NCBI RefSeq assembly: GCF_000299935.1
Contig: NZ_AMRL01000005.1
Location: forward strand, 1-64,000
Source of the DNA: Oceanibaculum indicum P24
GTDB lineage: Bacteria > Pseudomonadota > Alphaproteobacteria > Oceanibaculales > Oceanibaculaceae
Length of the DNA stretch: 64,000 nt
Reading direction: 5' to 3'
Part shown: piece by piece, positions 21,753 through 36,036 of the stretch
Position numbering within the stretch: the stretch's first letter is position 1
Layout of the letters: the number at the start of each line of letters is the position of its first letter
Notes under the pieces: model-generated
Told to the model about the DNA's origin: nothing
Database searches by the model: none
Seen by the model: only the letters and a program-made list of their open reading frames with translations
Program-made: the position numbers and the translations under genes

Positions 21753-22304
21753 TCAGCCCGCGACCTTACAGGCCTTGCTGATTTCCTCATAGGCCTTGGT
21801 GAAGCCGCTCAGCGAGTAGGTGTCCGTGGTCTCGGTGCCGCGCGAGGACACGCCCTTGATGACCATGCTGGAGCCCTTTTTCATGGCGTCCACAAGCTGC
21901 TTGTCTTCCTGCGCGGTGGCGGCCCAGGCGTGGTCATCGACGGTGAACAGACGGTAGGTCGTGCCGCCGATATTCACGCTGATCTCGCTGCCTTCTTTGT
22001 ACTGATAGCCGGCGATCACGCTGACCACGCCGACCGACTTCTTGGAGGGGCGGTGCGTCACCAGCGTGTAGATCTTGCCGCGCCTTGTGTAATCGCCCTC
22101 ATCCTTGGTCGGCTCGCTGACCATGTAGCACACGATCCCGCCATTCTCCTGATAGGTGAAGGCGCTCCAGGCGTTGTAGGTGCCGATCTGCTTGGGCTGC
22201 TGGGCACTGGCCTGGCCGGTCGCTGCGGGCAGGGACGCCAGGGACAGGAAGGCTGTCCAGAGGGCGAGGCGAAAGAGCGGGGAGATGCGAATCGACTTCA
22301 TCAT
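21753..22304 (-). CDS. invasion-associated locus B (IalB) family protein
   Basis: A 183-residue periplasmic protein with a signal peptide ending ...TGQASAQ. The mature part starts QIGTYNAWSAFTYQENGGIVCYMVSEPTK, the family's opening, and ends with a C-terminal ISKACKV, giving the conserved cysteine pair. IalB was named in Bartonella, where it is involved in erythrocyte invasion, but members are common in free-living alphaproteobacteria and their function there is unknown. Confidence 0.88.
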   Translation of the reverse strand: MMKSIRISPLFRLALWTAFLSLASLPAATGQASAQQPKQIGTYNAWSAFTYQENGGIVCYMVSEPTKDEGDYTRRGKIYTLVTHRPSKKSVGVVSVIAGYQYKEGSEISVNIGGTTYRLFTVDDHAWAATAQEDKQLVDAMKKGSSMVIKGVSSRGTETTDTYSLSGFTKAYEEISKACKVAG

Positions 22305-22624
22305 GTCGGTAACCTAAGCGAGAGCCCTATGCCCTGCCAACCCAGGATTGCCCCGGTTGGCCGTCAATTTGATGCCAGCTGGCTTCTAGGCGGCAAATCG
22401 AACTTTTTTGAGGCGGCCGGTAATCCGGCAACGCCACCGCCCCCGTATAAGTTTTCATGCAGGGACAAATTGACATCAGTCTGAAGCTTCGACGCGACCG
22501 CTCGCCGGCCAGCCCTGCCTTGTCCTGCTTTGTGGTTCCCTCGCTTGCAGGGATGGGCGGAAACCCCCTACATAAGGGGGCGGGCGTGGCACGGCCCGCA
22601 AAAGGGGGCGGCGAAGCCGGATCG
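22305..22624. other. intergenic region upstream of the ECF sigma gene
   Basis: A 320-bp gap. It holds a candidate ECF promoter at 22421-22453 and an in-frame extension of the sigma factor from 22457 that I reject because it is not sigma-like. I see no other gene. Confidence 0.5.
22421..22453 (+). promoter_or_regulatory. candidate RpoE-type (autoregulated) promoter
   Basis: TAATCC (22421-22426) and GTATAAGTT (22445-22453) are separated by 18 bp. This resembles the TGATCC / TAAG-type promoters used by RpoE of the ChrR class, with one mismatch in the -35 element. Such sigma factors usually transcribe their own operon. Confidence 0.4.
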
Positions 22625-23176
22625 ATGTCGGTAAAGACCCAGGAAGAACTCTTGATCGCCGTCGGGCGCAATCGTGACAGGGATGCGTTTGCGGCGCTGT
22701 TCTCGCATTTCGCGCCCCGGCTGAAATCTTTCCTGATGCGCCAGGGGACGGCGCCGGAAGGTGTCGAGGAACTCGTCCAGGAAGCCATGCTGATGGTTTG
22801 GCGCCGCGCCGAGACTTTTGATCCGTCGCAGGCCAGCGCCAGCACCTGGATATTCACCATCGCCCGCAACAAGCGGATTGATGCCCTGCGCCGCACGCGG
22901 CGGCCGGAACTCGACCCGGAAGACCCGGCGCTTGTGCCCAGCGCCCCGGCCGCTGCTGACGATGTGGTGTTCGAGACCCAGCGCGACGCGGTCGTGAAAC
23001 AGGCCCTGAAGACCCTGCCGCCAGAACAGGCGGACCTGTTGCGCCTTGCCTATTTCGAGGACAAGTCGCACGGCACGATAGCGGCCGAGAGCGGTATCCC
23101 AATCGGGACGGTGAAGTCGCGTATCCGACTTGCCCTGGCGAAGCTGCGCCAGAGCCTAGCAAGTGAGTTGATGTGA
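22625..23176 (+). CDS. ECF RNA polymerase sigma factor, RpoE (ChrR-partner) type
   Basis: A 183-residue ECF sigma factor. Region 2 is at about residues 20-85 (DAFAALFSHFAPRLKSFLMRQG, EELVQEAMLMVWRRAETFDP, STWIFTIARNKRIDALR) and region 4 at about 120-178 (LKTLPPEQADLLRLAYFEDKSHGTIAAESGIPIGTVKSRIR). The next gene encodes a ChrR-type anti-sigma that starts at its stop codon (TGATG). In Rhodobacter and Azospirillum such pairs control the response to singlet oxygen and carotenoid synthesis. The true start is the ATG at 22625; the frame is open further up but that part is not sigma-like. Confidence 0.92.
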   Translation: MSVKTQEELLIAVGRNRDRDAFAALFSHFAPRLKSFLMRQGTAPEGVEELVQEAMLMVWRRAETFDPSQASASTWIFTIARNKRIDALRRTRRPELDPEDPALVPSAPAAADDVVFETQRDAVVKQALKTLPPEQADLLRLAYFEDKSHGTIAAESGIPIGTVKSRIRLALAKLRQSLASELM

Positions 23177-23835
23177 TGATGTTTCATGTAAGCGAAGAAC
23201 ATCTGATGGATTATGCGGCGGGCACGGCGAGCGAGCCGGTCAGCCTGCTGGTTGCAACCCATCTGGCATTGTGCCCGGAGTGCCGGGCCAAGGTGGCCGA
23301 TTACGAGCGTATCGGTGGCGCGATGCTGGCGGACAGCAAGCCGGCCGACCTGACCGATGCGGCGTTGGACGCGGTGCTGGCCCGGCTCGACGAGGAGCCT
23401 GCCGATCTGCCCGCGCATAAGCCGGCAGTTCGCTATGACGAGACGACGCAGCGGATCCTGCCGGAGCCGCTGCGCTCCTATCTTGGCGATAATCTGAGCG
23501 CACTGCCCTGGCGCAACGTGACCCGGTCGCTGCAGGAGATCGAGCTGCCGATTGGCGACAGCGGCTACCGTACCCGTCTGCTGCGTATCAAGGCGGGGCA
23601 GGCGATGCCGGAACATACGCACGGCGGCAGCGAGATGACGCTGGTGCTGGCGGGCGGCTTCTCGGACGACACGGGTCATTACGGGCGCGGCGATGTCTCG
23701 ATTGCCGATGATGAGCTGGTGCACACGCCGGTGGCCGATGCCGGCGAGGATTGCATCTGCCTTGCCGTCACGGATGCGCCGCTGAAGCTGACCGGTCCGG
23801 TGGGGCGGATCATCAACCTCTTCATGCGCTATTAA
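23176..23835 (+). CDS. chrR: ChrR-type zinc-binding anti-sigma factor
   Basis: A 219-residue two-domain protein. The N-terminal anti-sigma domain has zinc ligands His4, His29, Cys33 and Cys36 (THLALCPEC); the C-terminal cupin has His147, His149 and Glu153 (EHTHGGSEM) and His183 (ELVHTP). The spacing of both sets matches that known for Rhodobacter sphaeroides ChrR exactly, so it very probably binds and inhibits the sigma factor encoded just upstream until oxidative signals release it. Possible starts are GTG 23173, ATG 23176 and ATG 23179; I used the ATG that overlaps the sigma stop by one base. Confidence 0.93.
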   Translation: MMFHVSEEHLMDYAAGTASEPVSLLVATHLALCPECRAKVADYERIGGAMLADSKPADLTDAALDAVLARLDEEPADLPAHKPAVRYDETTQRILPEPLRSYLGDNLSALPWRNVTRSLQEIELPIGDSGYRTRLLRIKAGQAMPEHTHGGSEMTLVLAGGFSDDTGHYGRGDVSIADDELVHTPVADAGEDCICLAVTDAPLKLTGPVGRIINLFMRY

Positions 23836-23843
23836 TTTCGCTA

Positions 23844-24509
23844 TCAGTTTCCGGCGCGGGCCAACAGTTCCTCGACCTTCGGCAGGATGCGCCCGACCAC
23901 CTCGGCGACTCCTTGCTCGTTAGGGTGGATGCCGTCCGGCTGGTTCAGCGATGGCTCCGTCGCCACCCCATCCAGGAAGAAGGGGTAGAACACCACGTCG
24001 TGCTTCTCGGCGAGGCGGTGGTAGGCGGCGTGGAAGGCCTCGGTATAGTCGCGCCCGAAATTGGGCGGGGCGTGCATGCCGGCCAGCAGCACGGGAATAT
24101 TTTCCTGCTTCAGCCGGGTCAGGATGGCATCGAGGTTGGCGTAGAGCTGTTCGACCGGCTGGCCGCGCAGCCCGTCATTCGCCCCCAGCTCGACGATGGC
24201 GGCATCCGGCTTTTCGGCCAGCGCCCAGTCCAGGCGGGCGAGGCCGCCGGTCGAGGTGTCGCCGGACATGCCGGCATTCACCACCCGCACCTGCTTTCCG
24301 GCAGTACGCAGGGTTTCTTCCAGCTGCGCCGGGAAGCTCTTGCCGTCGGGCAGGCCATAGCCCGCCATCAGGCTGTCGCCCAGGCCCAGGATGACGGTCT
24401 CCGCCCGCGCCGCCGTGCTGGTGAACAGCAGGGCGGCCAGCAGCGCTGGTATGATCAGTCCGTTGAATATCTTGCGCAGCGGGCCATATCCGGATTGGGC
24501 CTGCCGCAC
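23844..24509 (-). CDS. tesA: TesA-type SGNH esterase / thioesterase (arylesterase)
   Basis: A periplasmic SGNH hydrolase. It has a Sec signal peptide (LIIPALLAALLFTSTAARA), block I ILGLGDSLMAGYGL with the nucleophile Ser, block II AGMSGDTSTG, block III GANDGLRG, and block V DGIHPNEQG with the Asp and His. E. coli TesA of the same type hydrolyses acyl-CoAs and aryl esters. I chose the GTG at 24509, which gives a normal signal peptide; the frame stays open to ATGs at 24566 and 24614. It is divergent from the ABC genes ybbA-ybbP, the same arrangement as in E. coli. Confidence 0.9.
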   Translation of the reverse strand: MRQAQSGYGPLRKIFNGLIIPALLAALLFTSTAARAETVILGLGDSLMAGYGLPDGKSFPAQLEETLRTAGKQVRVVNAGMSGDTSTGGLARLDWALAEKPDAAIVELGANDGLRGQPVEQLYANLDAILTRLKQENIPVLLAGMHAPPNFGRDYTEAFHAAYHRLAEKHDVVFYPFFLDGVATEPSLNQPDGIHPNEQGVAEVVGRILPKVEELLARAGN

Positions 24510-24564
24510 TGCAGCAGCCCGGCGGTTTCCACAATCAGTCCCGGCAACAGCGCAGGCTTGCGAC

Positions 24565-25314
24565 ATGACAGCGCCCTCTTCCTCGGCTTCGGACTCGTCG
24601 CGCGATCCGATCATTCAGCTCGACGATGTGCGCCTTAACTTGAGAAGCGGGGCGGGCGAGGTCAACATCCTGCGCGGAATTGACCTCACCATCGCAGCGG
24701 GCGAGACGGTCAGCATTGTCGGTCCGTCCGGGGCCGGAAAATCCTCGCTGATGATGCTGATGGCGGGGCTGGAGCGCGCGACCGGCGGCTCGATCCGCGT
24801 TGCCGGCCATGATCTGGGCGGCATGAACGAGGACCGGCTGGCGCTGTTCCGCCGCGCCCATGTCGGGATCGTGTTCCAGGCCTTCCGGCTGGTGCCGACC
24901 ATGAGCGCACTGGAGAATGTCGCCATACCGCTGGAACTGGCCGGGGCGGCAGATGCGTTCGACCGGGCGGCGGAAGGTCTTGAGGCGGTCGGCCTCGGCC
25001 ATCGTACCGGCCATTATCCCGATCAGCTGTCCGGTGGTGAGCAGCAGCGCGTGGCGCTGGCTCGCGCTTTCGTTGCCGGCCCGTCGCTGCTGCTGGCGGA
25101 CGAGCCGACCGGCAATCTGGACGGCCATACCGGCGAGCAGGTCATCGAACTGATGTTCGACCTGAAGCGCCGCTTCGGCACCACGCTGGTTCTCATCACC
25201 CACGACCTTGATCTTGCGCGGCGCTGCCAGCGCACCATCCATCTTTCGGACGGCCGCATCGTCTCCGACGAGCGCGCGGGCGAGGCCAGCCTCGCCGCTG
25301 CGGCCGGGGGCTGA
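24565..25314 (+). CDS. ybbA: ABC transporter ATPase, YbbA/LolD-MacB type
   Basis: A 249-residue ATPase with Walker A GPSGAGKSS, the Q-loop FQAFRLVPTMSALENV, the signature LSGGEQQRVALARA, Walker B LLLADEPTGNLD and the H-loop LITHDLDLARRCQ. The EPTGNLD and ENV motifs are typical of the LolD/MacB/YbbA class. It pairs with the FtsX-like permease starting 2 bases after its stop. The function of YbbAP is not firmly established, with a proposed role in releasing lipophilic substrates. I chose the ATG at 24565; an upstream extension overlaps the divergent tesA and is unlikely. Confidence 0.9.
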   Translation: MTAPSSSASDSSRDPIIQLDDVRLNLRSGAGEVNILRGIDLTIAAGETVSIVGPSGAGKSSLMMLMAGLERATGGSIRVAGHDLGGMNEDRLALFRRAHVGIVFQAFRLVPTMSALENVAIPLELAGAADAFDRAAEGLEAVGLGHRTGHYPDQLSGGEQQRVALARAFVAGPSLLLADEPTGNLDGHTGEQVIELMFDLKRRFGTTLVLITHDLDLARRCQRTIHLSDGRIVSDERAGEASLAAAAGG

Positions 25315-25315
25315 T

Positions 25316-27850
25316 ATGCCAGTTTGGGGGATGCCAGTCTGGTTGCGCTTTGCCCGGCGCGAGCTGCGCGGCGGGCTGAAAGGCTTCCGCATCTTCCTCG
25401 CCTGCCTGATGCTGGGCGTGGCGGCGATTGCCGGTGTCGGCTCCGTCTCCGAATCGCTGCTGGCCGGCCTGCGCGCCGATGCCAGCCAGATCCTGGGCGG
25501 CAGTGTCGATGTCGAATCGGTGCACCGGCCGATCACGCCGGAGGCGCTGGCCTATCTGCAAACGCAAGGACGATTGTCGCATGTCGCCGACATGCGGGCG
25601 ATGGCGCGCAATCCGAACGGTGACCAGCGCTCGCTCTCCGAACTGAAGGCGGTGGACGGCGCCTATCCGCTCATCGGCGCCATGGAACTCGACCCCGCCG
25701 TGCCGCTGGAAGAGGCGCTCGCCAATCGCGGCGGCGTCTGGGGGGCGGTCATCGAACCCAATTTGCTCGACCGTCTGGGACTTGCTCTGGGTGACAGGCT
25801 CCGCGTCGGCGAGCTGGATGTCGAGGTGCGGGCCACGATCCTGCGCGAGCCGGACCGCGCGGTCAGCTTCGCCAGCTTCGGGCCGCGTGTGATGATCGCC
25901 CGCGACGCGCTGGAGGCGACCGGCCTTATCCAGCCTGGCACGCTGATCGACTATCATTACCGCCTCGTGCTGCCTGCCGGCACCGACCATGCCGCCTGGA
26001 TGCGGGACTTCCGCGACCGCTATGCCGCCGAGAATGGCTGGCGCGTGCGCGGCCTGAGCGAAGCGGCGCCGGGCCTGCGGCGCTTCATCGACCGGGTGGC
26101 GCAGTTCCTGACGCTGGTCGGGCTGACCGCGCTGCTGGTCGGCGGCGTCGGCGTCGGCAATGCGGTGAAGAGCTATCTGGACGGCAAATCCACCACCATC
26201 GCCACGCTGAAATGCCTGGGTGCCGAAGGCGCGGTGGTGTTCCGCACCTACCTGTCGCTGGTCATGATCCTGGCGCTGGCCGGAATCGCCGCCGGGCTGG
26301 TGCTGGGCGCGGCGCTGCCCTATGCTGCGGCGGCGGTGCTGAACCAGCTGATCCCGGTGCAGGTGGCGCCGGCACTCTATGCCGGTCCGCTGGCGCTCGC
26401 CGGCCTGTTCGGCCTGCTGACGGCGCTGGCCTTCTCGCTCTGGCCGCTGGCGAAGGCGAAGGACATCCGCCCGGCGGGCCTGTTCCGCCAGCTGGTCAGC
26501 GGCGAGGGCGGCCGGGTCGGCCTGCCCTATATCCTGGCGCTCGGCCTGTCGGCGGTGGCTTTGGCGGCGCTTGCCATCTTCTCCTCCAATGAGCGGGTGC
26601 TGGCCGGCTGGTTCGTGCTTGGCGCCATCGGTGCCGTCCTCATCTTCCTGGGGGCGGCGCGTCTGCTGATGCTGGGCGTCGCGGCGGCGGGGCGTCCGCG
26701 CCAGCCGACGCTGCGGCTGGCGCTGGCCAATCTGCACCGGCCGGGCGCGCCGACCGCCAGCATTGCGCTTTCGCTGGGGCTGGGCATCACCGTGCTGGTC
26801 GCGGTGGCGCTGACCCAGGCCAATATGGCGCGGCAGGTGACCGAGCAGTTGCCGGAGCAGGCACCCAGCTATTTCTTCATCGATATCCAGCCGAACCAGA
26901 TCGACCGCTTCCAGCAGACCGTCGATGCGGTGCCGGGCATCAGCAAGGTCGAACGGACGCCGATGGTGCGCGGCCGCGTCTCTGCCATCAATGGCGTGCC
27001 TTCCGACCAGGTGACCGTCGATCCGGAGGTGCGCTGGGTGCTGCGCGGCGACCGTGGCCTGACCTATGCCGCCGCCCCGCCGCCGGGAACGCAGATCGTC
27101 GCCGGCGACTGGTGGCCGGAGGATTACAAGGGGCCGCCGCTGATCTCCTTCGATGCGGAGATCGCCGCCGGCATGGGCATCGGCATCGGCGACACGCTGA
27201 CGATCAATGTGCTGGGCCGGGACATCACCGCGACCATCGGCAATCTGCGCCGGATCGACTGGGGCAATCTGTCGATCAACTTCGTCATCATCTTCGCGCC
27301 GGGCACGATGGAGGCTGCACCCCATACCATCATCGCCACGGTGAACACCGATGGTCCGGCGGCCGAGGAGGCGGTGCAGCGCGCCGTCACCGACGAGCTG
27401 CCGAATGTGAATGCGATCCGCGTGAAGGACGCGCTGGAGGCCGCGAACCAGATTCTGGAGGCGGTCGGGCAGGCGGTGCGGATCACCGCCTCGGTCGCCA
27501 TCCTCGCCGGCACGCTGGTGCTGGGTGGGGCGGTGGTCGCCGGCCATCACCGCCGGGTCTATGACGCGGTGGTGCTGAAGGTGCTGGGGGCGACGCGGCG
27601 CGACGTGCTGGCGGCCTTCCTGCTGGAATACGGCCTGCTGGGAGCGATGGTGGCGCTGATCGCCTCTGTCGTCGGCACCATCGTCGCCTGGGCGGTGCTG
27701 GTCTTCGTCATGCGTTCCGACTTCGTGTTCGCGCCCGGTGTCGTGATTTGGACATCATTGCTGTGTACGGTCATTACCGTCGCACTGGGTCTTGCCGGGA
27801 CCTGGCGGGCGCTGGGCCAGAAGGCGGCCCCGCTGCTGCGCAACGAATAA
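25316..27850 (+). CDS. ybbP: ABC transporter permease, FtsX-like, YbbP type
   Basis: An 844-residue permease with an N-terminal helix (GFRIFLACLMLGVAAIAGVGSVSESLL), a large periplasmic domain, a core FtsX block around residue 260 (FLTLVGLTALLVGGVGVGNAVKSYLDGKSTTIATLKCLGAEG), then a second periplasmic domain and a second FtsX block at the C-terminus (GTLVLGGAVVAGHHRRVYDAVVLKVLGATRRDVLAAFLLEYGLLG). Length and architecture match YbbP. The start is the ATG at 25316 (2 bases after the ybbA stop; ATG 25331 is also possible). It is probably cotranscribed with ybbA. Confidence 0.9.
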   Translation: MPVWGMPVWLRFARRELRGGLKGFRIFLACLMLGVAAIAGVGSVSESLLAGLRADASQILGGSVDVESVHRPITPEALAYLQTQGRLSHVADMRAMARNPNGDQRSLSELKAVDGAYPLIGAMELDPAVPLEEALANRGGVWGAVIEPNLLDRLGLALGDRLRVGELDVEVRATILREPDRAVSFASFGPRVMIARDALEATGLIQPGTLIDYHYRLVLPAGTDHAAWMRDFRDRYAAENGWRVRGLSEAAPGLRRFIDRVAQFLTLVGLTALLVGGVGVGNAVKSYLDGKSTTIATLKCLGAEGAVVFRTYLSLVMILALAGIAAGLVLGAALPYAAAAVLNQLIPVQVAPALYAGPLALAGLFGLLTALAFSLWPLAKAKDIRPAGLFRQLVSGEGGRVGLPYILALGLSAVALAALAIFSSNERVLAGWFVLGAIGAVLIFLGAARLLMLGVAAAGRPRQPTLRLALANLHRPGAPTASIALSLGLGITVLVAVALTQANMARQVTEQLPEQAPSYFFIDIQPNQIDRFQQTVDAVPGISKVERTPMVRGRVSAINGVPSDQVTVDPEVRWVLRGDRGLTYAAAPPPGTQIVAGDWWPEDYKGPPLISFDAEIAAGMGIGIGDTLTINVLGRDITATIGNLRRIDWGNLSINFVIIFAPGTMEAAPHTIIATVNTDGPAAEEAVQRAVTDELPNVNAIRVKDALEAANQILEAVGQAVRITASVAILAGTLVLGGAVVAGHHRRVYDAVVLKVLGATRRDVLAAFLLEYGLLGAMVALIASVVGTIVAWAVLVFVMRSDFVFAPGVVIWTSLLCTVITVALGLAGTWRALGQKAAPLLRNE

Positions 27851-27861
27851 GGGAGGCGGAC

Positions 27862-28134
27862 ATGCGCGTTCTGATACTGGCGGCCCTGCTTCTGACAGCT
27901 GCTGTCCCGCAGGCGCGCGCCGAGGAACCTTCCGGCAATCCGGTGGAGACGCTGCGCGAAGGGATGACGAAGGCGGTCGAGGCCCTGCGCGATCTTGCCG
28001 AGGAAGTGCAGCGCTATGGCGTCCCCTATTTCGACAAGGACGGCAACATCGTCATTCCGCGCAAGGTGCCGGATGAGGGTGTGCCCGATACCGCCGATAC
28101 AGGGCAAGCGGAGGCCCGCTCGATCACACTCTGA
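27862..28134 (+). CDS. small secreted protein of unknown function
   Basis: A 90-residue protein with a Sec signal peptide (MRVLILAALLLTAAVPQARAEE). The mature part is amphipathic, with an Asn-Pro-Val start and an acidic C-terminus (EVQRYGVPYFDKDGNIVIPRKVPDEG). It has no domain that I recognise. GGGAGG precedes the ATG and it lies 11 bases after ybbP, so it may be cotranscribed. The lanthipeptide precursor genes start about 100 bases later behind their own promoter, so a link to them is not indicated. Confidence 0.6.
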   Translation: MRVLILAALLLTAAVPQARAEEPSGNPVETLREGMTKAVEALRDLAEEVQRYGVPYFDKDGNIVIPRKVPDEGVPDTADTGQAEARSITL

Positions 28135-28173
28135 TCTGATCGCTGTCACCATTTTTTCTTAAAAAACAGTCAA

Positions 28174-28202
28174 TTGTCTGCATTTTCCGGTTGCGATATG
28201 CT
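28174..28202 (+). promoter_or_regulatory. putative promoter of the lanthipeptide operon
   Basis: TTGTCT (28174-28179) and TATGCT (28197-28202) are 17 bp apart; each matches four of six consensus bases. The start of transcription would be near 28209, 28 bases before the first precursor's ATG. An AT-rich tract, TTTTTTCTTAAAAAA (28152-28166), lies at about -57 to -43 and could act as an UP element. Confidence 0.5.
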
Positions 28203-28236
28203 GCCCGCCATCATTGGTTTGAGGGCGGAAATCATC

Positions 28237-28524
28237 ATGTCGCAGCAGAATTTCGAGAGCCTGAAGAAGAGTGTCGAAGCCGATCCGGCACTGGTCCAGA
28301 AACTGTCCGGCGTGAAGGAAGTGGGCGATGTCGCAGAGTTTCTGGCCGGCGTTGCCGCGCAGAAGGGCATTGCGCTGAATGCTGATCAGATCAAGGCACA
28401 GATGACGGCCAGCAAGGCCGGCCCGGACGACGAGCTCGACGATGCAGCACTGGAAGCGGTGTCCGGCGGCGGCTCGCCCTATTGCATGTTCACCAAGGGC
28501 TGCTACTGCATTTTCACCAAGTGA
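28237..28524 (+). CDS. lanthipeptide precursor 1 with Nif11-type leader
   Basis: A 95-residue RiPP precursor. Residues 1-78 form a Nif11-like leader: FESLKKSVEADPALVQKL, then the VAEFLAGVAAQKGIAL helix, and an acidic end DDELDDAALEAV just before the double-glycine SGGG. Cleavage after Gly78 would leave the 17-residue core GSPYCMFTKGCYCIFTK. It contains dehydratable residues Ser80, Thr86 and Thr94, and cysteines 83, 89 and 91. SPYC and TKGC are each spaced i to i+3, as in short lanthionine and methyllanthionine rings. The leader and core, the paralogue immediately downstream and the LanM gene after it together support a class II lanthipeptide. It starts at the ATG following GGCGGAAATCATC; the frame is open upstream to 28174 but that part lies over the promoter. 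Confidence 0.88.
   Translation: MSQQNFESLKKSVEADPALVQKLSGVKEVGDVAEFLAGVAAQKGIALNADQIKAQMTASKAGPDDELDDAALEAVSGGGSPYCMFTKGCYCIFTK
28387..28488 (+). repeat. 102-bp tandem-duplicated segment, copy in precursor 1
   Basis: This segment encodes residues 51-84 of precursor 1, which are identical in precursor 2 (28709-28810). By my count the two differ at 6 of 102 nucleotides and all six are third-position, synonymous changes, while the rest of the two genes diverges much more. It covers the last third of the leader, the cleavage site and the first six core residues. Confidence 0.8.
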
Positions 28525-28558
28525 CGGTAGGCCAAAAAAGCCGACAGGGAGGAAGGTA

Positions 28559-28867
28559 ATGGCAAATCAGGCATTCGAGGCGCTGAAGGCAGCCGTGAAG
28601 TCGGACAAGGCACTGCTCGACAAGCTGTCCGGTCATAAGGAAATGGGCGACGCCGCCGAGGCGCTGGCCGGCATCGCCAAATCGAAGGGCATCGATATCT
28701 CCGCCGAGCAGATCAAGGCGCAGATGACGGCCAGCAAGGCCGGCCCGGATGACGAGCTGGACGATGCCGCGCTGGAAGCGGTGTCCGGCGGCGGCTCGCC
28801 CTACTGCATGACCACCAAGGGCTGCTATTGCATGTGCACCGGCAAGTTCACCGAAAACTGGTTCTGA
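28559..28867 (+). CDS. lanthipeptide precursor 2 with Nif11-type leader
   Basis: A 102-residue paralogue of precursor 1. The Nif11-like leader (FEALKAAVKSDKALLDKLSG...EALAGIAKSKGI) ends in the same acidic stretch and SGGG; residues 51-84 are identical to precursor 1. The core after Gly78 has 24 residues: it starts GSPYCMTTKGCYCMC and then continues for nine residues to the C-terminal Phe102. It offers Ser80, Thr85, Thr86, Thr94 and Thr98 for dehydration and Cys83, 89, 91 and 93 for ring formation, one more cysteine than precursor 1. Strong ribosome binding site (GGGAGGAAGGTA before the ATG at 28559). It lies 34 bases after precursor 1 and 23 bases before the synthetase gene. Confidence 0.88.
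   Translation: MANQAFEALKAAVKSDKALLDKLSGHKEMGDAAEALAGIAKSKGIDISAEQIKAQMTASKAGPDDELDDAALEAVSGGGSPYCMTTKGCYCMCTGKFTENWF
28709..28810 (+). repeat. 102-bp tandem-duplicated segment, copy in precursor 2
   Basis: The second copy of the segment described for precursor 1; it encodes the same 34 residues with 6 silent differences. This pattern fits either recent gene conversion or strong selection on the leader end and cleavage site. Confidence 0.8.
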
Positions 28868-28890
28868 GCCCGTATTTCCTTGCCGCCTGA

Positions 28891-31653
28891 GTGACAAAGC
28901 CGTTCGAGGATATCCTCCGGCCGCTGTGCGACAGTGCGCTGGAGGAGTTTAATCTGGCCACGGAAGTGTCGGGGGTGGACGCGACAGTCGGGCGGGTGGT
29001 GTGCGAGGGCCTGCGTCCCTTCCTGCTGGAACGGCTGTGCACCCTTGCAGCGCCGGTTCTGTTCGCGGCGTTCGACAAGGCCCGTCCCGCGCCGCCGCCA
29101 ATCTCTCTCCTGCTCGACGAACCGCCGGAGGATGTGTCCCGCACCACCTACGCAGCCTTTGCCGCTGGCATGGAAGCTGGCGGCCTTGATGATTTGCGGT
29201 GTTTTTACCCCGGCCTCGACACGGCGCTGACCCTTCTCATCGAGCATCATTCCGCCACCGCGCTGGAGCTGGCGGTGCGGCTGCAGGCGGATCGCGCCGC
29301 CTTGCGCGGCTTCATGCCAGGCTGGGCGGAAGGCGTGCCGGCGCTTTCGTCTATCGGGTTCGGTCTGTCCGATCCGCATGCGCAGGGGCGCATGGTTGCC
29401 AGTATCGACTTCGCGGACGGTACCAAGCTGGCCTACAAGCCACGCTCGCTGGCGGCGGAGGCCGGATTCGCCGGTGTGCTGCGCTGGCTGGCGGTGCGCA
29501 ATCCCGCCTTGCCGGATCAGCGCCTGCCGCGCGTGCTGGATCGCGGCACGCATGGCTGGATGGAATGGGTCACCCCCGCCGATAGCCGCGACGAAGGCGA
29601 GGTGGCGGCATTCTACCGCCGACTCGGCATGCTGATGGCGGTGCTTGGCCTGATGCGCGGCACCGATATCCATTCCGAGAACCTGATCGCGGCGGGCGCC
29701 TATCCGGTCATCGTCGATCTGGAATGCCTGCTGGCGCCGGACGCGATGCCAGACTGGCTGAAACGCCTGTCCGACCCGCCGCCCTTCATGGAGAGCGGGC
29801 TGCTGCCCTTCCTGCTGCCGCTGGGTGAGGGGCAGTGGCGCAATATCGGTTCCGGCGGGCCGCCGCTGCCGCCGGTGCCGCTGCCGGATCACGGCTTCCG
29901 TCATACTGGCACCGACTGGATTCGCCGCGCGGACATTCTGCGCCAGCCGGAGGAACCTTGCCTGCCGCGCCTTGGCGGCGCGGAGCAGGATATACGCGCG
30001 CATCTGCCGGCATTGCAGGAAGGCTACCGGCAGGCGTTGGAGGCAATGCTGGCGCAGCGCGCCGATTTTCTCGCTGAAGATGGGCCGCTGGCCGGTTTTG
30101 CCGATGCGCGCTGCCGTTTCGTCGCACTGCCGACGGACTCCTACCGACGGCTGCTGGTCCGGCTGCGCGAGCCGGACATGATGGCCATGCCCGACGCGGT
30201 GGAGCGGCAGGCGGCGCGCATCGCCCGTCCGGCCCTGCCGGGTATCGCGGAGGCCGACTGGCAACGGCTGCTGGCGGCAGAGGCGGCGGCGCTCGGCCGG
30301 GGAGATGTGCCGGCCTTCCTGTTCAGCCCGTCCGAGGGCATCCTCTCCGAATCCGCTGGCGCGCCGGTCGGAAGGCTGGGCGACCGGTCGCCGCTGGAGG
30401 CGGCAAGGCAGGCCATAGGGGGGCTGGACGAAAAGACGTTGGCGCGACACACGGCCATCCTGCGCGGCGCCTTTGCCCCCACGCCTCTGCCTGTGGAGGG
30501 CGATCTGCTGGACCGGCTGGCGGGGTGGCTGGCGGCGGGAGCGATTCCGCGCGGCGATGGCGGGGTGGACTGGCTGCGCCCGCATGAGGAATTGCCGATT
30601 TCGTTTCGCGTCGCCGGCCACGGCCTCTACCACGGCAGTGCCGGTATCGCGCTGGCGCTGGTGGCGGCTGGCCGGCACCGGGGGCGGTCTGACTGGCTGA
30701 ACCTTGCGGCCAAGGCGCTGCTGCCACTGCGCCATCTCGCGGCGGATGGGACAGCGCAATCGCTGGCGCAGGCGTTCGGTGCCGGTCATGCGGTCGGCCT
30801 GGGCGGCATGATCGCCGCGCTGGTCTGGGCCGGCGATCTGCTGGAAGAACCCGGTTATGTCGCGAATGCGCAGGCACTGGCGGACCGGTTGGGTGATCCG
30901 GCGGCGGTCTCCTCCTTCGACTTCTATGACGGTATCGCCGGGCTGTTACCGGCGCTGCACCTGCTGGCACGCCGGACCGGGAATGCCGCGCTGCCCATGC
31001 TGATGGCGCGCTGGGCGGACCGGCTGCTCGCCTTGGCGACGGAAGATGAGGACGCACTTCTCTGGCGTCCCCGGCGCGGTCAGCCGGTGGCGGGGCTGGC
31101 GCATGGCCAGTCCGGCATGGCGGTGGCGCTGGCCTCTGCCTTCAACGCGACGGGACAGCAGCGCTATCTCGCGGCGGCACAGGCCGCCCTGCTACCGGAG
31201 GACCGGCTGTTCAATGCCGATACGGGCAACTGGCCGGACCCCAACGGGAAAGGTCGCCCTTCGACCGCCTGGTGCCATGGCGCGCCGGGTGTGGCGCTGG
31301 CGCGCGCGGCGTTGCTGAGGCTGGCGCCGGAGGGCTTCGCGGAGCGCCGGACGGAGCTGGCACGGGCGCTCGCAACCACCGCTGCCGATCCCGCCGGGGA
31401 AGCCGGCGATCTGTGTTGCGGGCTGGCTGGCCGGTTGTCCGTGCTCGGGCTGGCCGGGGTGGAGGATACGGCGCTGGCGGAAGCGGCCCGGCTGCGCTGG
31501 TCCGGTGACAGGCCGGGCCTGTGGAGCGACGCGCTGCCCTTCGCGGCGCCCGACCCCTGCCTGTTCAAGGGCGTGGCGGGGATCGTCCTGGCGCTGGTGC
31601 AGGCGGAGGTGCCGAAACTGGCGCCGCCCGTCCTGCTCCCCGCGCTGGGTTAG
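28891..31653 (+). CDS. class II lanthipeptide synthetase LanM (CCG-type)
   Basis: A 920-residue bifunctional enzyme that would phosphorylate and eliminate Ser/Thr and then add Cys thiols to make lanthionine rings. The N-terminal dehydratase (about residues 90-500) has GTKLAYKPRSL (Lys183), RGTDIHSENLIAAG (Asp259, His261, Asn264) and VIVDLECLL (Asp276, Glu278) of the kinase-like active site. The C-terminal LanC-like cyclase (about 570-915) has HGLYHGSAGIALAL, AHGQSGMAVAL, WCHGAPG (Cys795) and DLCCGLAG (Cys842, Cys843). In most LanC domains the last ligand pair is Cys-His; here it is Cys-Cys, so zinc is held by three cysteines as in ProcM. The GTG start directly follows an in-frame TGA, so no earlier start exists, and no clear ribosome binding site is visible. 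The stop overlaps that of the convergent aldo/keto reductase by 4 bases. Confidence 0.93.
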   Translation: MTKPFEDILRPLCDSALEEFNLATEVSGVDATVGRVVCEGLRPFLLERLCTLAAPVLFAAFDKARPAPPPISLLLDEPPEDVSRTTYAAFAAGMEAGGLDDLRCFYPGLDTALTLLIEHHSATALELAVRLQADRAALRGFMPGWAEGVPALSSIGFGLSDPHAQGRMVASIDFADGTKLAYKPRSLAAEAGFAGVLRWLAVRNPALPDQRLPRVLDRGTHGWMEWVTPADSRDEGEVAAFYRRLGMLMAVLGLMRGTDIHSENLIAAGAYPVIVDLECLLAPDAMPDWLKRLSDPPPFMESGLLPFLLPLGEGQWRNIGSGGPPLPPVPLPDHGFRHTGTDWIRRADILRQPEEPCLPRLGGAEQDIRAHLPALQEGYRQALEAMLAQRADFLAEDGPLAGFADARCRFVALPTDSYRRLLVRLREPDMMAMPDAVERQAARIARPALPGIAEADWQRLLAAEAAALGRGDVPAFLFSPSEGILSESAGAPVGRLGDRSPLEAARQAIGGLDEKTLARHTAILRGAFAPTPLPVEGDLLDRLAGWLAAGAIPRGDGGVDWLRPHEELPISFRVAGHGLYHGSAGIALALVAAGRHRGRSDWLNLAAKALLPLRHLAADGTAQSLAQAFGAGHAVGLGGMIAALVWAGDLLEEPGYVANAQALADRLGDPAAVSSFDFYDGIAGLLPALHLLARRTGNAALPMLMARWADRLLALATEDEDALLWRPRRGQPVAGLAHGQSGMAVALASAFNATGQQRYLAAAQAALLPEDRLFNADTGNWPDPNGKGRPSTAWCHGAPGVALARAALLRLAPEGFAERRTELARALATTAADPAGEAGDLCCGLAGRLSVLGLAGVEDTALAEAARLRWSGDRPGLWSDALPFAAPDPCLFKGVAGIVLALVQAEVPKLAPPVLLPALG

Positions 31654-32696
31654 AGAACCGGCATCGGCTCCTCGTTCAGGATCGCCTCGATGCCCTTCAG
31701 CACCGTGTCCGACAGGGCAACATCGGCGCTGCCGATATTCTCGGCCAGCTGCTCGACGCTGGTGGAGCCAATGATGTTCGCGGTCACGAAGGGCCGGCTG
31801 TTCACATAGGCCAGTGCCATATGCGTCGGGCTGAGGCCGTTTTCCTTTGCCAGCGCCACCAGCTTCTCGGTCACCGCCATCGGCTTCGGCGCGATATAAC
31901 GGCCATAGCGCGAGAAATACCGGTCCATGCGCGAGCCCTGCGGAATCGCACCGCCGAGATATTTGCCGCTGAGCGCACCCATGGCGAGCGGCGAGAAGGC
32001 GAGCAGCCCGACATTCTCATGGATCGCCATTTCCGACAGGCCGATCTCGAACGGCCGGTAGAGCAGGCTGTAGGCATTCTGGATGCTGACAACGCGCGGC
32101 AGGTTCAGCTGCTCTGCGGCGCGCAGAAAGGCATGCACGCCCCAGGGCGTCTCGTTCGACAGGCCGACGGCGCGCACCTTGCCGGCTTTCACGATCTCGG
32201 CCAGCGCCTCCAGCGTCTCCTCGATCGGGGTGGCGCCGGGCGATTCCTTGTGGACATAGCCGAACTGGCCGGCGGTGTTGGTCTGCCGGTCGGCCCAGTG
32301 CAGCTGGTACAGATCGACATAGTCGGTCTTCAGCCGGCGCAGCGAATCGTCGATGGCCTGATGGATATTCTTGCGGTCCAGCTTCGCCTGGCCGCCCCTT
32401 ATATGCTCAAAGCCCTTGCGGCTGGCGCCCACCACCTTCGTCGCCAGCACGAACTTGTCGCGGTTCTTGCGGGCGGTGATCCAGTTGCCGACGATTTCCT
32501 CGGTGGCACCATAGGTCTTGCCGCTGGGCGGCACCGGATACATTTCCGCCGTGTCGATGAAGGTCACGCCGTGATCCAGCGCGTAATCGAGCTGGGTATG
32601 CCCCTCGGCCTCGGTGTTCTGTTCACCGAAAGTCATGGTGCCGAGGCAGATGACGCTGACCTCGATGTCGGTACGGCCAAGGCGGCGCTTTTCCAT
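31650..32696 (-). CDS. aldo/keto reductase (Tas-like)
   Basis: A 348-residue NADP-dependent (beta/alpha)8 oxidoreductase. The catalytic tetrad is visible as Asp and Tyr in FIDTAEMYPVPP, Lys in VLATKVVG and His in LYQLHWADR. RRLGRTDIEVSVICLGTMTFGEQNTEAEGHTQLDYALDHGV and the long loop before the GNWITARK segment are typical of the Tas/YghZ branch. The substrate is unknown. I chose the ATG at 32696, ten bases after GAGGAG; a GTG at 32714 is in frame. It converges on LanM with overlapping stops and is probably unrelated to it. Confidence 0.9.
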   Translation of the reverse strand: MEKRRLGRTDIEVSVICLGTMTFGEQNTEAEGHTQLDYALDHGVTFIDTAEMYPVPPSGKTYGATEEIVGNWITARKNRDKFVLATKVVGASRKGFEHIRGGQAKLDRKNIHQAIDDSLRRLKTDYVDLYQLHWADRQTNTAGQFGYVHKESPGATPIEETLEALAEIVKAGKVRAVGLSNETPWGVHAFLRAAEQLNLPRVVSIQNAYSLLYRPFEIGLSEMAIHENVGLLAFSPLAMGALSGKYLGGAIPQGSRMDRYFSRYGRYIAPKPMAVTEKLVALAKENGLSPTHMALAYVNSRPFVTANIIGSTSVEQLAENIGSADVALSDTVLKGIEAILNEEPMPVL

Positions 32697-32915
32697 GGCG
32701 GATGGTCTCCTCACGGGATGAAGGCTGGCACGTCGGTACGGAAGGTCCGGCGCGGTAAGTCGGTATCCGGTATAGCGGCCTGAGGGCGGGTTGCAAGCGC
32801 CGAGAAAGCGGCGCGCCCTTAAATCGGCCTTCTGCGGTCCTATATCTATTGAAGCCGTGGAGCAATTCGCCTACATCAGATGCAGTTTGCGTCCACCGCA
32901 TAGCAGAGGGAAGCG

Positions 32916-33659
32916 ATGGATACTCAAAAGCAGTATATGAACCGGGCGGAAGCACTTTCGGCGGACATCGATGCCGGGCTTCGCGCCCATATGCTCAAGG
33001 TTTACAACTACATGGCCAGCGGCCTGGCGCTGACGGGTATCGTCGCCTACGCCGTCGCGCAGATGGCCGTGGAGAGCTGGAGCCCGCTGGCACTGACCGA
33101 TCTGGGCATGACGCTGTATGCCTCGCCGCTGAAGTGGGTGGTGATGCTGGCGCCGCTGGCCTTCGTGTTCGGCCTGTCGATGGGCATCAACCGCATGTCC
33201 TACGCCACGGCGCAGATGGTGTTCTGGGCCTACGCGGCCGTGATGGGTCTGTCGCTGTCCTCGATCCTGCTGGTCTTCACCGGCGAGAGCGTGGCGCGCG
33301 TGTTCTTCATCACCGCCGGCATGTTCGCCGCGACCAGCCTGTACGGCTACACCACGAAGCGTGACCTGTCGCGCCTCGGCTCCTTCATGTTCATGGGGCT
33401 GATCGGCATCATCATCGCGTCGGTGGTCAACATCTTCGTCGGTTCGACGGCGCTGCAGTTCGCCATCTCGGTGATCGGCGTCATCGTGTTCACCGGCCTG
33501 ACCGCCTGGGACACGCAGCGCATCAAGGAACTGTATGTCGAGCTGGACGGCAGCGAGATCGCCGGCAAGAAGGCGCTGATGGGCGCGCTGTCGCTGTACC
33601 TGAACTTCATCAACATGTTCGTCATGTTGCTGCAGCTGTTCGGTACGCAGCGCGAGTAG
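32916..33659 (+). CDS. Bax inhibitor-1 / YccA family membrane protein
   Basis: A 247-residue protein with seven hydrophobic helices. The N-terminal cytoplasmic part (MDTQKQYMNRAEALSADIDAGLRAHMLKVYNYMASGLALTG) is the family's usual opening, and helix 6-7 includes FVGSTALQFAISVIGVIVFTGLTAWDTQRIKELY with the conserved Asp. Such proteins are pH-dependent calcium channels or modulators of membrane proteases (YccA inhibits FtsH). GAGGGAAGCG precedes the ATG. Confidence 0.93.
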   Translation: MDTQKQYMNRAEALSADIDAGLRAHMLKVYNYMASGLALTGIVAYAVAQMAVESWSPLALTDLGMTLYASPLKWVVMLAPLAFVFGLSMGINRMSYATAQMVFWAYAAVMGLSLSSILLVFTGESVARVFFITAGMFAATSLYGYTTKRDLSRLGSFMFMGLIGIIIASVVNIFVGSTALQFAISVIGVIVFTGLTAWDTQRIKELYVELDGSEIAGKKALMGALSLYLNFINMFVMLLQLFGTQRE

Positions 33660-33686
33660 CAGACCGCCCAATAAGACGAATGGGAA

Positions 33687-33722
33687 GGGGCCGTCCGGAT
33701 ATCCGGGCGGCCTCCTCTTTTC
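33687..33722. terminator. bidirectional terminator
   Basis: A stem with one G-T pair (GGCCGTCCGGAT at 33689-33700 with ATCCGGGCGGCC at 33701-33712) is followed by TCCTCTTTTC. It lies between the convergent BI-1 and phhB genes. Confidence 0.7.
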
Positions 33723-33731
33723 GGGCGGTGC

Positions 33732-34016
33732 TCAGAGGCTGTCGATGAAGCGCGCCAGCTTCAGGTCGCGCGCGCTGATCCCGCCGGCATCATGCGTCGT
33801 CAGCGTAATCTCCACCCGGTTATAGACGTTCGACCATTCCGGGTGATGATCCAGCTTCTCGGCCATCAGGGCGATTCTTGCCATGAAGCCGAAAGCCTGA
33901 TTGAAATCGGCGAATTTGAAGCTGCGGGCGATTGCGGATCGCCCCTCAACCCGCCGCCATCCCGCCAGTTCCTTCAACGCCGCGTCGATTTCCGTATCCG
34001 TCAGTCGCTGTACCAT
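33732..34016 (-). CDS. phhB: 4a-hydroxytetrahydrobiopterin dehydratase (pterin carbinolamine dehydratase)
   Basis: A 94-residue enzyme that dehydrates 4a-hydroxytetrahydropterin, recycling the cofactor of aromatic amino acid hydroxylases. It has the family motif [33 protein letters not shown], with the three histidines. No phenylalanine hydroxylase gene is present in the window. Confidence 0.93.
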
Positions 34017-34108
34017 CCGAAAAGACCTCCATGGCTGCTTCCAAACTCCTGAAATTCCCCGTCGGCGCCAGCTTGGCGGCCCAGCCCGGGCGCGCTATCG
34101 TCGATCAC

Positions 34109-34510
34109 ATGAAGACACCGATCCACACCACGGCACCCAGCCTTGAGGATATCGAGGAGATGGCCCTGGCCGCGCTGCAGGTCATCCCCGATCCGCTGCG
34201 CCAGCATGTGCGCGATGTGCTACTGCGGATCGAGGATTTCCCCGACGAGGATACCGAACTGGAGATGGGGGTGGAAACGCCCTTCGATCTGCTGGGCCTC
34301 TATCGCGGCGTGGCGATGACCAACCGCAGCCTGCTGGACGTGCCGCAGGATGTGGACATGATCTTCCTCTACCGCCGGCCGATCCTGGATTACTGGTGCG
34401 AGACCGGCGAGGATCTGCAGGACATCGTGCGCCATGTGCTGATCCATGAGATCGGCCATCATTTCGGCTATTCCGACGAGGATATGGAAGCCATTGAGGA
34501 GCAGGACTGA
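34109..34510 (+). CDS. minimal zinc metallopeptidase (DUF1025 family)
   Basis: A 133-residue protein with the zinc-binding motif HEIGHHFGYSDEDM at the C-terminus, preceded by RRPILDYWCETGEDLQDIVRHVLI. This is a zincin-like minimal protease family common in bacteria; the biological substrate is unknown. The ATG at 34109 gives the usual start (MKTPIHTTAPSLEDIEEMALAAL); an in-frame ATG at 34031 adds 26 residues that look less typical. Confidence 0.88.
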   Translation: MKTPIHTTAPSLEDIEEMALAALQVIPDPLRQHVRDVLLRIEDFPDEDTELEMGVETPFDLLGLYRGVAMTNRSLLDVPQDVDMIFLYRRPILDYWCETGEDLQDIVRHVLIHEIGHHFGYSDEDMEAIEEQD

Positions 34511-34579
34511 GGGGCGCTCTCGCGCTTTTCTGGCGAGACGACCGTTTTCCTGCCATGCTTTGCCTCTATCTCATGAGGC

Positions 34580-35338
34580 ATGACGCGCTTGGTCCAATCC
34601 CGCTCCTGCCATTGTCTGCTGCTGGTCCTGCTGGCGCTTGGCCTGCTGCTGCCGTCCCGCGCGGCGCGGGCGGAGATTCCCGTCGATCTGCAGCTCGTGC
34701 TCGCCATCGACGCTTCCTCCTCGGTCGATTTCGACGAATTCAACCTGATGGCCAACGGTCTGGCGCACGCCTTCCGCGACGAGCGCGTGAAGCAGGCCAT
34801 CTCCAGCGGCGCGCTGGGGGCGATTGCCGTCACGGTGGTGCAATGGGCCAGCGCGGGCACCAACGCCCAGCATGTCTCCGTGCCCTGGCAGCTGGTCGAT
34901 AGTCCGGCAGCCTCCGAGGCACTTGCCGATACGCTGCAGATGATGCCGCGCGATGTGGATGGCGGCGGTACCTCCATCGGCAATGCCATCCGTTATGCGT
35001 CACGGCAGTTCCCGGCCGGCCCCTATCGCGGGCTGCGGCAGGTGATCGACGTGTCGGGGGATGGCATCGACAATGGCGTCGATCCGGTGCGCGAGGCACG
35101 CGACGAGGCGGTCGGGCAGGGCATCACCGTGAATGGCCTTGCCATTCTGAACGAGGAAAAGAATCTCGACCGGCACTATCAGGATTATGTCATCGGCGGG
35201 CCCGGTGCTTTCGTCATCGATGCCGCCGACTATGCCGACTTCTCCCGCGCCATCCTGCAGAAGCTGATCCGCGAGATCAGCGACGTGCCCATCGCCCGGA
35301 ATGATCGGGTGCCTGCCGCTATCCTGGCCGCGCGCTAG
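34580..35338 (+). CDS. von Willebrand factor A-like protein (DUF1194)
   Basis: A 252-residue secreted protein with a signal peptide (CHCLLLVLLALGLLLPSRAARA). The mature part starts IPVDLQLVLAIDASSSVDFDEF, the MIDAS metal-binding DxSxS of a vWA domain, and includes GGGTSIGNAIRYA and VIDVSGDGIDNG. DUF1194 proteins are common in alphaproteobacteria and their role is unknown; a metal-dependent adhesion or sensing role is plausible. Its 3' end overlaps the convergent DUF1045 gene by 4 bases. Confidence 0.88.
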   Translation: MTRLVQSRSCHCLLLVLLALGLLLPSRAARAEIPVDLQLVLAIDASSSVDFDEFNLMANGLAHAFRDERVKQAISSGALGAIAVTVVQWASAGTNAQHVSVPWQLVDSPAASEALADTLQMMPRDVDGGGTSIGNAIRYASRQFPAGPYRGLRQVIDVSGDGIDNGVDPVREARDEAVGQGITVNGLAILNEEKNLDRHYQDYVIGGPGAFVIDAADYADFSRAILQKLIREISDVPIARNDRVPAAILAAR

Positions 35339-36036
35339 ATCTTGCTGAGCGGGAAATAGCGCGTCAGCAGGAAGGGTGTCTCCCGGCTGTCCTGGCGGAA
35401 CAGGGCGACCGCCTCAACGCGCAACGGCTCGGCTGCGAAACGCGCCACCATCGGCTCCAGCGCCTGACGGAAGGCGGCTCGCTCAGCCTCGTCGGGCAGG
35501 CGGCAGGTCAGCGTCAGGTGGAAGCGGAACTGGTCCATCACATAGGGATAGCCCCAGCGCACCAGCATCTCTTCCTGCCGGTCGCTCAGCCCGGCGGCGC
35601 GCCGCTTCGCCAGCTCCGATTCCGTGGCCGGCGCGCGGAAACGGTCAAGCGCGGTAACGGCGGCGGCGGCCAGCGTGTCGATCTCCGGCGATGGCGTGGC
35701 GCATTGCAGGGCCAGGAAGCCCGACAGCTCCTTCAGCACCAGCGGTGGCGCGATAAAGGGGCGCAGCTGTGCGGCGAACCGCCCGACGCTGCTGACAAGC
35801 TGCGCCTCCGTCGCCTTGGGATGCAGCCGGAAGGGCGGCTTCAGCGTGCCGTGGAAGCCGTAATGCCGGGCATCGCTGGTGACGTTGGCGAGGCGCGCCG
35901 GCGTGACGCCGGCCACCGCCGGCTGTTCGCGCAGCGCGCCGCTGACGGCATCGCGCCCCAGCCAGCGGCAGCCGAAACGGTACAGGTCACTGTCCTCGGG
36001 CGGGCAGTAATACAGGGCGTAGCGGGGATCGCTCAT
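35335..36036 (-). CDS. DUF1045 family protein (2H phosphoesterase fold)
   Basis: A 233-residue protein starting MSDPRYALYYCPPEDSDLYRFGCRWLGRD. It has the two H-x-T motifs HGTLKPPF and HLTLTCR of the 2H phosphodiesterase superfamily. DUF1045 genes are often near phosphonate-utilisation genes, but none is present here. Its ATG overlaps the stop of the upstream DMT transporter gene by 4 bases, so the two are probably one operon. Confidence 0.87.
   Translation of the reverse strand: MSDPRYALYYCPPEDSDLYRFGCRWLGRDAVSGALREQPAVAGVTPARLANVTSDARHYGFHGTLKPPFRLHPKATEAQLVSSVGRFAAQLRPFIAPPLVLKELSGFLALQCATPSPEIDTLAAAAVTALDRFRAPATESELAKRRAAGLSDRQEEMLVRWGYPYVMDQFRFHLTLTCRLPDEAERAAFRQALEPMVARFAAEPLRVEAVALFRQDSRETPFLLTRYFPLSKI

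Follow-up and report, generated by a model that had tools for sequence, protein, structure and literature searches.

The window, a stretch of 64,000 nucleotides from Oceanibaculum indicum P24, carries three closely spaced genes on the plus strand, lanA1, lanA2 and lanM, with 34 bases between the first two and 23 bases between lanA2 and lanM (Table 1). The lanM product scores 482 bits against TIGR03897 (cut-off 304) and combines a DUF4135 dehydratase domain (PF13575) with a LanC-like cyclase domain (PF05147). A LanM of this composition beside precursors with Ser, Thr and Cys is what distinguishes class II systems. Both leaders match TIGR03798 over its full length (positions 1-68 of 68), that of lanA2 with 33.2 bits, above the cut-off of 32.3, and that of lanA1 with 26.9 bits, under it. 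The three genes form a compact operon for class II lanthipeptides, and the thioether products of this operon are predicted from sequence. An earlier note, made from the DNA letters, had given both precursors and their cores with sequences and numbering that agree with ours. It had placed Ser80, Cys83, Thr86, Cys89 and Cys93 correctly and had pointed out the four residues (ENWF) beyond T98, which is the last Thr in core 2.

Table 1. Positions in the window of the lanthipeptide genes and of the features within them
Feature	Position	Strand	Description	Basis
lanA1	28237..28524	+	precursor, 95 aa, Nif11-like leader and core GSPYCMFTKGCYCIFTK	TIGR03798, relatives
core 1 of lanA1	28471..28521	+	G79-K95; S80, T86, T94 and C83, C89, C91	
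lanA2	28559..28867	+	precursor, 102 aa, Nif11-like leader and core GSPYCMTTKGCYCMCTGKFTENWF	TIGR03798
core 2 of lanA2	28793..28864	+	G79-F102; the six positions of core 1 and T85, C93, T98, tail	
lanM	28891..31653	+	class II lanthipeptide synthetase, 920 aa, GTG start	
homogenised stretch of lanA1	28387..28485	+	codons 51-83; 94% DNA identity to lanA2	
homogenised stretch of lanA2	28709..28807	+	codons 51-83; DNA identity to lanA1	

Outside codons 51-83, where lanA1 and lanA2 are 94% identical in DNA, the two genes are considerably less alike (63% over codons 1-50), and gene conversion across the boundary between leader and core is likely. Judged from these identities, the likeness of core 1 and core 2 within O. 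indicum P24 is in part recent homogenisation. In O. pacificum, core 1 and core 2 are nevertheless matched by separate counterparts (DNA identity of 94% and 92% across 16 codons), so the two core types predate the split between these two genomes. Codons -60 to -30 were excluded from the comparison with O. pacificum, as an indel distorts the values there. Elsewhere in the window (22457-23835), an ECF sigma factor gene and a neighbouring gene for a ChrR-type cupin lie upstream of genes for an ABC ATPase and an FtsX-like permease; we saw no tie between this region and the lanthipeptide genes.

Relatives were sought through the synthetase, the leader and the core. A LanM search of 59 related genomes matched five, O. 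indicum P24 included, and 10 loci came out of the GTDB contig collection when it was scanned with four aligned LanMs. A profile built from seven leaders, blind to the core, showed that in the loci of Tistrella mobilis and Nitrospirillum, too, LanM lies next to precursors that carry this core. The DNA search pattern for the core, P-[Y/W]-C-x-x-T-x-G-C-Y-C, was present in 6 of 385 genomes of the class (three of Oceanibaculum and three of the genus of Tistrella mobilis), among which the reversed pattern gave no match. It was also present in 5 of 82 genomes of the Nitrospirillum family, in 1 of 397 genomes of the order of Rhizobium sp. RU36D (RU36D itself), in 1 of 398 genomes of a phylum sample (O. 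indicum P24 itself) and in all six searched genomes that had been reached through LanM; these samples overlap one another. In total, we collected 17 precursors from 13 genomes of Oceanibaculum, Tistrella, Nitrospirillum, Azospirillum and relatives, Rhizobium and Azorhizobium, with Tistrella mobilis (G261 and G390) counted once. In the open-licence papers that we searched for Oceanibaculum, Tistrella, Nitrospirillum, Azospirillum, Nif11 and the core strings, we came upon no description of this lanthipeptide family.

The core was absent beside the LanM relatives on the short contigs searched from Gemmatimonadetes and Ardenticatenia MAGs (L029, L030), and the core pattern was absent from G017, which has a partial LanM-like match. 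A third, decayed precursor of Oceanibaculum G002 was left out of the 17. It lies between the two intact ones (L003 4576-4866, the same in L059 and L018), the AVCGG at the end of its leader runs on into ESRDQNRRVEIIII and then a stop, and the other two frames hold no readable core.

In a tree of 14 LanM sequences, Oceanibaculum and Tistrella stand apart from the rest, Azorhizobium groups with Nitrospirillum, and Rhizobium RU36D groups with G461 of the Nitrospirillum family. We read the placement of Azorhizobium and RU36D as transfer between orders, to which the tree points even though a check for spread on plasmids, a tblastn comparison of the lanA1 precursor with 72,556 plasmid records, gave no match.

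To compare the cores, we numbered 16 residues from the Ser of GSP as 1. S1, C4, T7, C10, C12 and T15 are invariant in all 17 precursors, as are P2, G9 and Y11, whereas positions 3, 5, 6, 8, 13, 14 and 16 vary. For the precursors found by it, the search pattern itself fixed P2, C4, T7, G9, C10, Y11 and C12, and among the nine core positions that it does not fix outright, S1 and T15 are the sole invariant ones. The extraction required a Ser before the Pro, yet none of the 17 distinct DNA places located when this was not required was lost, so Ser1 was in effect not imposed. Exactly three Ser/Thr and three Cys, with no others, are present in 15 of the 17 cores. The remaining two, those of core 2 type in O. 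indicum P24 and O. pacificum, carry both C14 and T19, along with the tail, and T6 occurs in core 2 alone and is not conserved. In precursor numbering, T6 is the additional Thr85 of core 2, and C14 and T19 are C93 and T98; the earlier note had passed over Thr85 and the joint arrival of C93 and T98.

The core is more similar than the leader in every one of the 116 between-genus pairs (mean identities 0.78 and 0.43; the pairs are not independent), and pN/pS is 0.32 in the core and 0.71 in the leader. Synonymous changes are common in the core (pS 0.42, pN 0.13), and we therefore attribute its constancy to selection on the peptide and not to the recent spread of one piece of DNA. Tistrella mobilis and Azorhizobium have identical residues at all 16 core positions, and their leaders differ by about 74 non-synonymous changes. 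The constancy of the core against diverging leaders and synthetases implies that selection acts on one product shape, although the limits of what LanM or the peptidase will accept could account for part of this purifying selection.

The earlier note had taken SPYC and TKGC, each with a Ser or Thr three residues before a Cys, as two compact rings, and had proposed a fixed first ring joined to a variable second half. The two pairs themselves hold up, since SPYC-like and TKGC-like pairs are kept in all 17 precursors, beside a CCG-type LanM. The division into a fixed and a variable part does not, because Cys12 and Thr15, in the supposedly variable half, are as invariant as the other pairs, core 2 included. 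They form a third pair, Cys91-x-x-Thr94, that the note had overlooked and that is present with a spacing of three in both cores (CIFT and CMCT). When core 1 was shuffled 200,000 times, every Cys could be paired with a Ser or Thr at distance three, in either direction, in 0.95% of the shuffles, and in 4.2% when any one fixed distance from 2 to 7 was allowed. With chance figures of this order, the spacing within one peptide is only suggestive, and it is the conservation across genera that provides the real evidence.

The i,i+3 spacing fits S1-C4, T7-C10 and C12-T15 simultaneously. Only S1 and T7 precede any Cys, which means that a fully bridged product must hold a bridge from a Cys to the later Thr15, whatever the pairing. 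There are no indels among the six positions, so all six possible Ser/Thr-Cys pairings are equally conserved and conservation cannot discriminate between them; our choice of the i,i+3 pairing draws on precedent and compactness. That precedent comes from passages on ProcM, which describe Cys-first rings (Cys3/Thr7 in Pcn1.1 and Cys3/Ser9 in Pcn2.8) as well as rings of ProcA3.3 variants that join Thr11 to Cys14, three residues further on (PMC10306099). In the longer cores, the joint presence of C14 and T19 is consistent with a fourth ring, which would also be Cys-first.

Two other arrangements of the same residues have to be weighed against three i,i+3 rings. As described in part of one paper, lanthipeptide bridges mostly join a Cys to a preceding Ser or Thr (PMC11251773). 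In core 1, this would allow just S80 and T86 to be bridged, leaving one Cys free (or in a disulfide or dimer) and Thr94 merely dehydrated to dehydrobutyrine, which is the earlier note's picture of two forward rings. We regard a product with only these two conserved rings as unlikely, though it deserves to be taken seriously: against it stand the invariance of Cys12 and Thr15 in 17/17 precursors, the latter outside the search pattern, and the joint appearance of C14 and T19 in the long cores, and ProcM-type enzymes do make Cys-first rings, according to the passages cited above (PMC10306099). Rather less probable still are overlapping rings, for example Thr86-Cys91 with Cys89-Thr94. The invariance of the six residues backs such pairings equally, but they call for larger rings that span the conserved Gly9 and Tyr11, and each Cys already has a partner at distance three, an arrangement met in the 0.95% of shuffles mentioned above.

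The Thr-x-Gly-Cys spacing of TKGC recalls ring B of nisin, which is Thr-Pro-Gly-Cys. The resemblance goes no further, as nisin is a class I lantibiotic and its leader and enzymes differ.

A two-peptide product had also been raised in the earlier note. In such a product the peptides of lanA1 and lanA2 would act together, with one supplying the fixed binding part and the other the variable part. O. indicum P24 and O. pacificum do have two adjacent precursors before one LanM, with C-termini that differ within each genome and are kept between the two; two precursors with one LanM are also found in haloduracin, lacticin 3147 and roseocin. Nine of the 13 genomes, however, have a single precursor, which weakens this reading and makes such a product unlikely, and both precursors of Oceanibaculum G002 lack the long C-terminus of core 2. 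Where two precursors occur together they are near copies that share the six-residue layout, not complementary partners, whereas the two-component systems covered in the relevant part of one paper pair structurally dissimilar peptides (PMC7268733). The synthetases also differ, being of the CHG type in two-component systems, as far as passages in two papers describe them, and of the CCG type with Nif11 leaders here (PMC10027976, PMC7268733). We give a two-peptide lantibiotic little credence, slightly less than overlapping rings.

The CCG motif of the O. indicum P24 LanM is formed by C842-C843-G, with C795 also in the cyclase, and it reads LCCG where the aligned LicM2 has LCHG. The same LCCG is found in all core-associated LanMs for which the cyclase end was read, including the partial LanM of G423. 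In print, as passages from three papers have it, the motif is typical of promiscuous synthetases that are associated with Nif11 and have diverse cores (PMC10027976, PMC11251773, PMC10783134), and one of them states, for clusters outside its own actinobacterial group, that there is no significant core conservation (PMC10027976). The present family joins a CCG-type synthetase and a Nif11 leader with a fixed core.

The closest known systems are the prochlorosins, with ProcM and SyncM, which share the CCG cyclase motif and a Nif11-type leader ending in Gly-Gly, and whose small rings, Cys-before-Ser/Thr and i,i+3 rings among them, resemble those predicted here. Prochlorosin cores are many, diverse and scattered, in contrast to the nearly invariant cores of the present family, with one or two per genome and three Cys and three Ser/Thr at fixed places. 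The leader and exporter families are also those of the Nif11/NHLP-leader RiPPs with a LanM and an NHLM exporter (TIGR03794/03796/03797), where LanM lies in or near the cluster (Haft et al. 2010). For those, the part of the paper concerned stresses hypervariability of the core within a genome, whereas the core is the most conserved part of the present precursors; it also mentions an N11P with a LanM homologue in Sinorhizobium medicae (PMC2887384).

One might still ask whether the O. indicum P24 LanM serves a prochlorosin-like library, as a promiscuous enzyme acting on many scattered Nif11 substrates. Its CCG motif and Nif11 leaders would fit, as would seven further Nif11-like peptides elsewhere in the genome, found at E values up to 1. 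Against this, the tails of six of the seven, those that were read, contain no Cys, which weakens the idea, and the cores with Cys, one or two in each of the 13 genomes, hardly differ either inside a genome or from one genome to another; we did not find many diverse, scattered cores for one LanM. Such a library is very improbable here, the least probable of the alternatives considered. The Nif11 model gave 15 matches, of which five are core-bearing precursors; among the other 10, seven have a Gly-Gly-type site and a Cys-free tail and two have no such site. At an E value of 0.01, the model misses known precursors in G385, G386, G388, G390 and G461, and so further LanM substrates may be unseen.

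No LanT was seen among the ORFs listed for region 22000-36000, and the sole C39 peptidase match in the O. indicum P24 genome lies on another contig (C3) than lanM. It belongs to an NHLM export set, all above cut-off: TIGR03794 (HlyD) with 324.6 bits, TIGR03796 (C39-ABC1) with 1090 bits, TIGR03797 (ABC2) with 912.7 bits and a TolC. NHLM_micro_ABC1 is present in all 13 core-bearing genomes, above cut-off in 12, the copy in G461 being cut by a contig end. It lies within the lanthipeptide cluster in seven genomes (G385, G386, G387, G388, G389, G423 and G461) and away from it in three Oceanibaculum and three Tistrella. In Oceanibaculum G001 (98% complete), core, LanM and ABC1 are all absent, a joint absence that, as a single event, ties the three together where they are unlinked. 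The exporter link in Oceanibaculum is one that we infer from the exporter's family, its co-occurrence and this one co-absence.

On contig C3, a SpoIIE phosphatase with HAMP and a methyltransferase lie directly upstream of the NHLM exporter (L017 357-3262). Genes for SpoIIE, HATPase and STAS also occur in Azospirillum sp. SYSU D00513, within a 19-kb cluster that has a different core on either side. SpoIIE was considered as a shared regulator, but in our scan the neighbours of the clusters in Nitrospirillum, Azorhizobium, Rhizobium and G461 were other genes (glutaminase, a two-component pair, metabolic enzymes, a permease, an AraC regulator and an RND pump), and we claim no common regulator. Beyond precursor, LanM and exporter, we found no gene common to the clusters, be it receptor, immunity gene or regulator, so there is no immunity gene or receptor to point to and any role is a guess.

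Taken as a whole, it seems probable to us, though well short of certain, that lanA1-lanA2-lanM yields a conserved three-ring peptide that is exported by the unlinked NHLM system and whose shape is under selection for recognition by a partner. The Nif11-type leader would bring the precursor to LanM, which would dehydrate Ser and Thr of the core and couple them to Cys, giving the three small thioether rings conserved across the family: Ser80-Cys83 and Thr86-Cys89, with Ser or Thr first, and Cys91-Thr94, with Cys first. Core 2 would most likely gain a fourth, Cys93-Thr98. The calculated monoisotopic masses are 1947.839 for linear core 1 and 1893.807 after loss of three waters, and 2757.086 for linear core 2, 2685.044 after loss of four waters and 2667.034 after loss of five. 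The C39 peptidase of the NHLM-type exporter, encoded by the HlyD/ABC1/ABC2/TolC genes on the other contig, would then cut the leader after Gly-Gly as the peptide leaves the cell. Selection would favour one defined shape, most likely for a specific partner such as a receptor that senses it as a signal, or a conserved target in other cells, and not variety.

The near-constant 16-residue ring region in distantly related marine and soil bacteria suggests that one peptide shape has been kept for a purpose, and selection for recognition by one partner, either a signal receptor or an antibacterial target, is the most economical reading. More tentatively, and with rather less than even confidence, we propose that a CCG-type synthetase of the promiscuous kind, with Nif11 precursors, has become locked onto one three-ring product with an obligatory Cys-before-Thr ring, which has been kept and moved across several alphaproteobacterial orders and serves marine and plant-associated bacteria as an interbacterial or host-directed signal or as a single-target ligand.

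Enzymes that accept nearly any core have their standard example in the prochlorosin-like systems, whose products have no known role. The same type of enzyme and leader with an invariant core offers a natural contrast to them, and the family can be used to probe if the CCG motif truly signals promiscuity. One small peptide, presumably with one partner, would provide an entry to what such lanthipeptides do, and because the core cannot fully cyclise otherwise, the family is a clean test of Cys-before-Thr ring formation.

Two further observations concern other genes of these bacteria. Tistrella G036 (L079) and G164 (L080) each have a second, larger CCG LanM with an open frame of about 1100 aa. In O. 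indicum P24, six of the other Nif11-like peptides (L009, L010, L012, L014, L015 and L016) have Gly-Gly sites and Cys-free tails and are unlinked to LanM; the NHLM exporter may secrete these without lanthionines. The tail of one of them (L010) is kept in three Oceanibaculum (with L071 in G002 and L073 in G003), where it ends in NTQNGxDPSKREFWLGF, and this peptide is possibly a second exported product without lanthionine.
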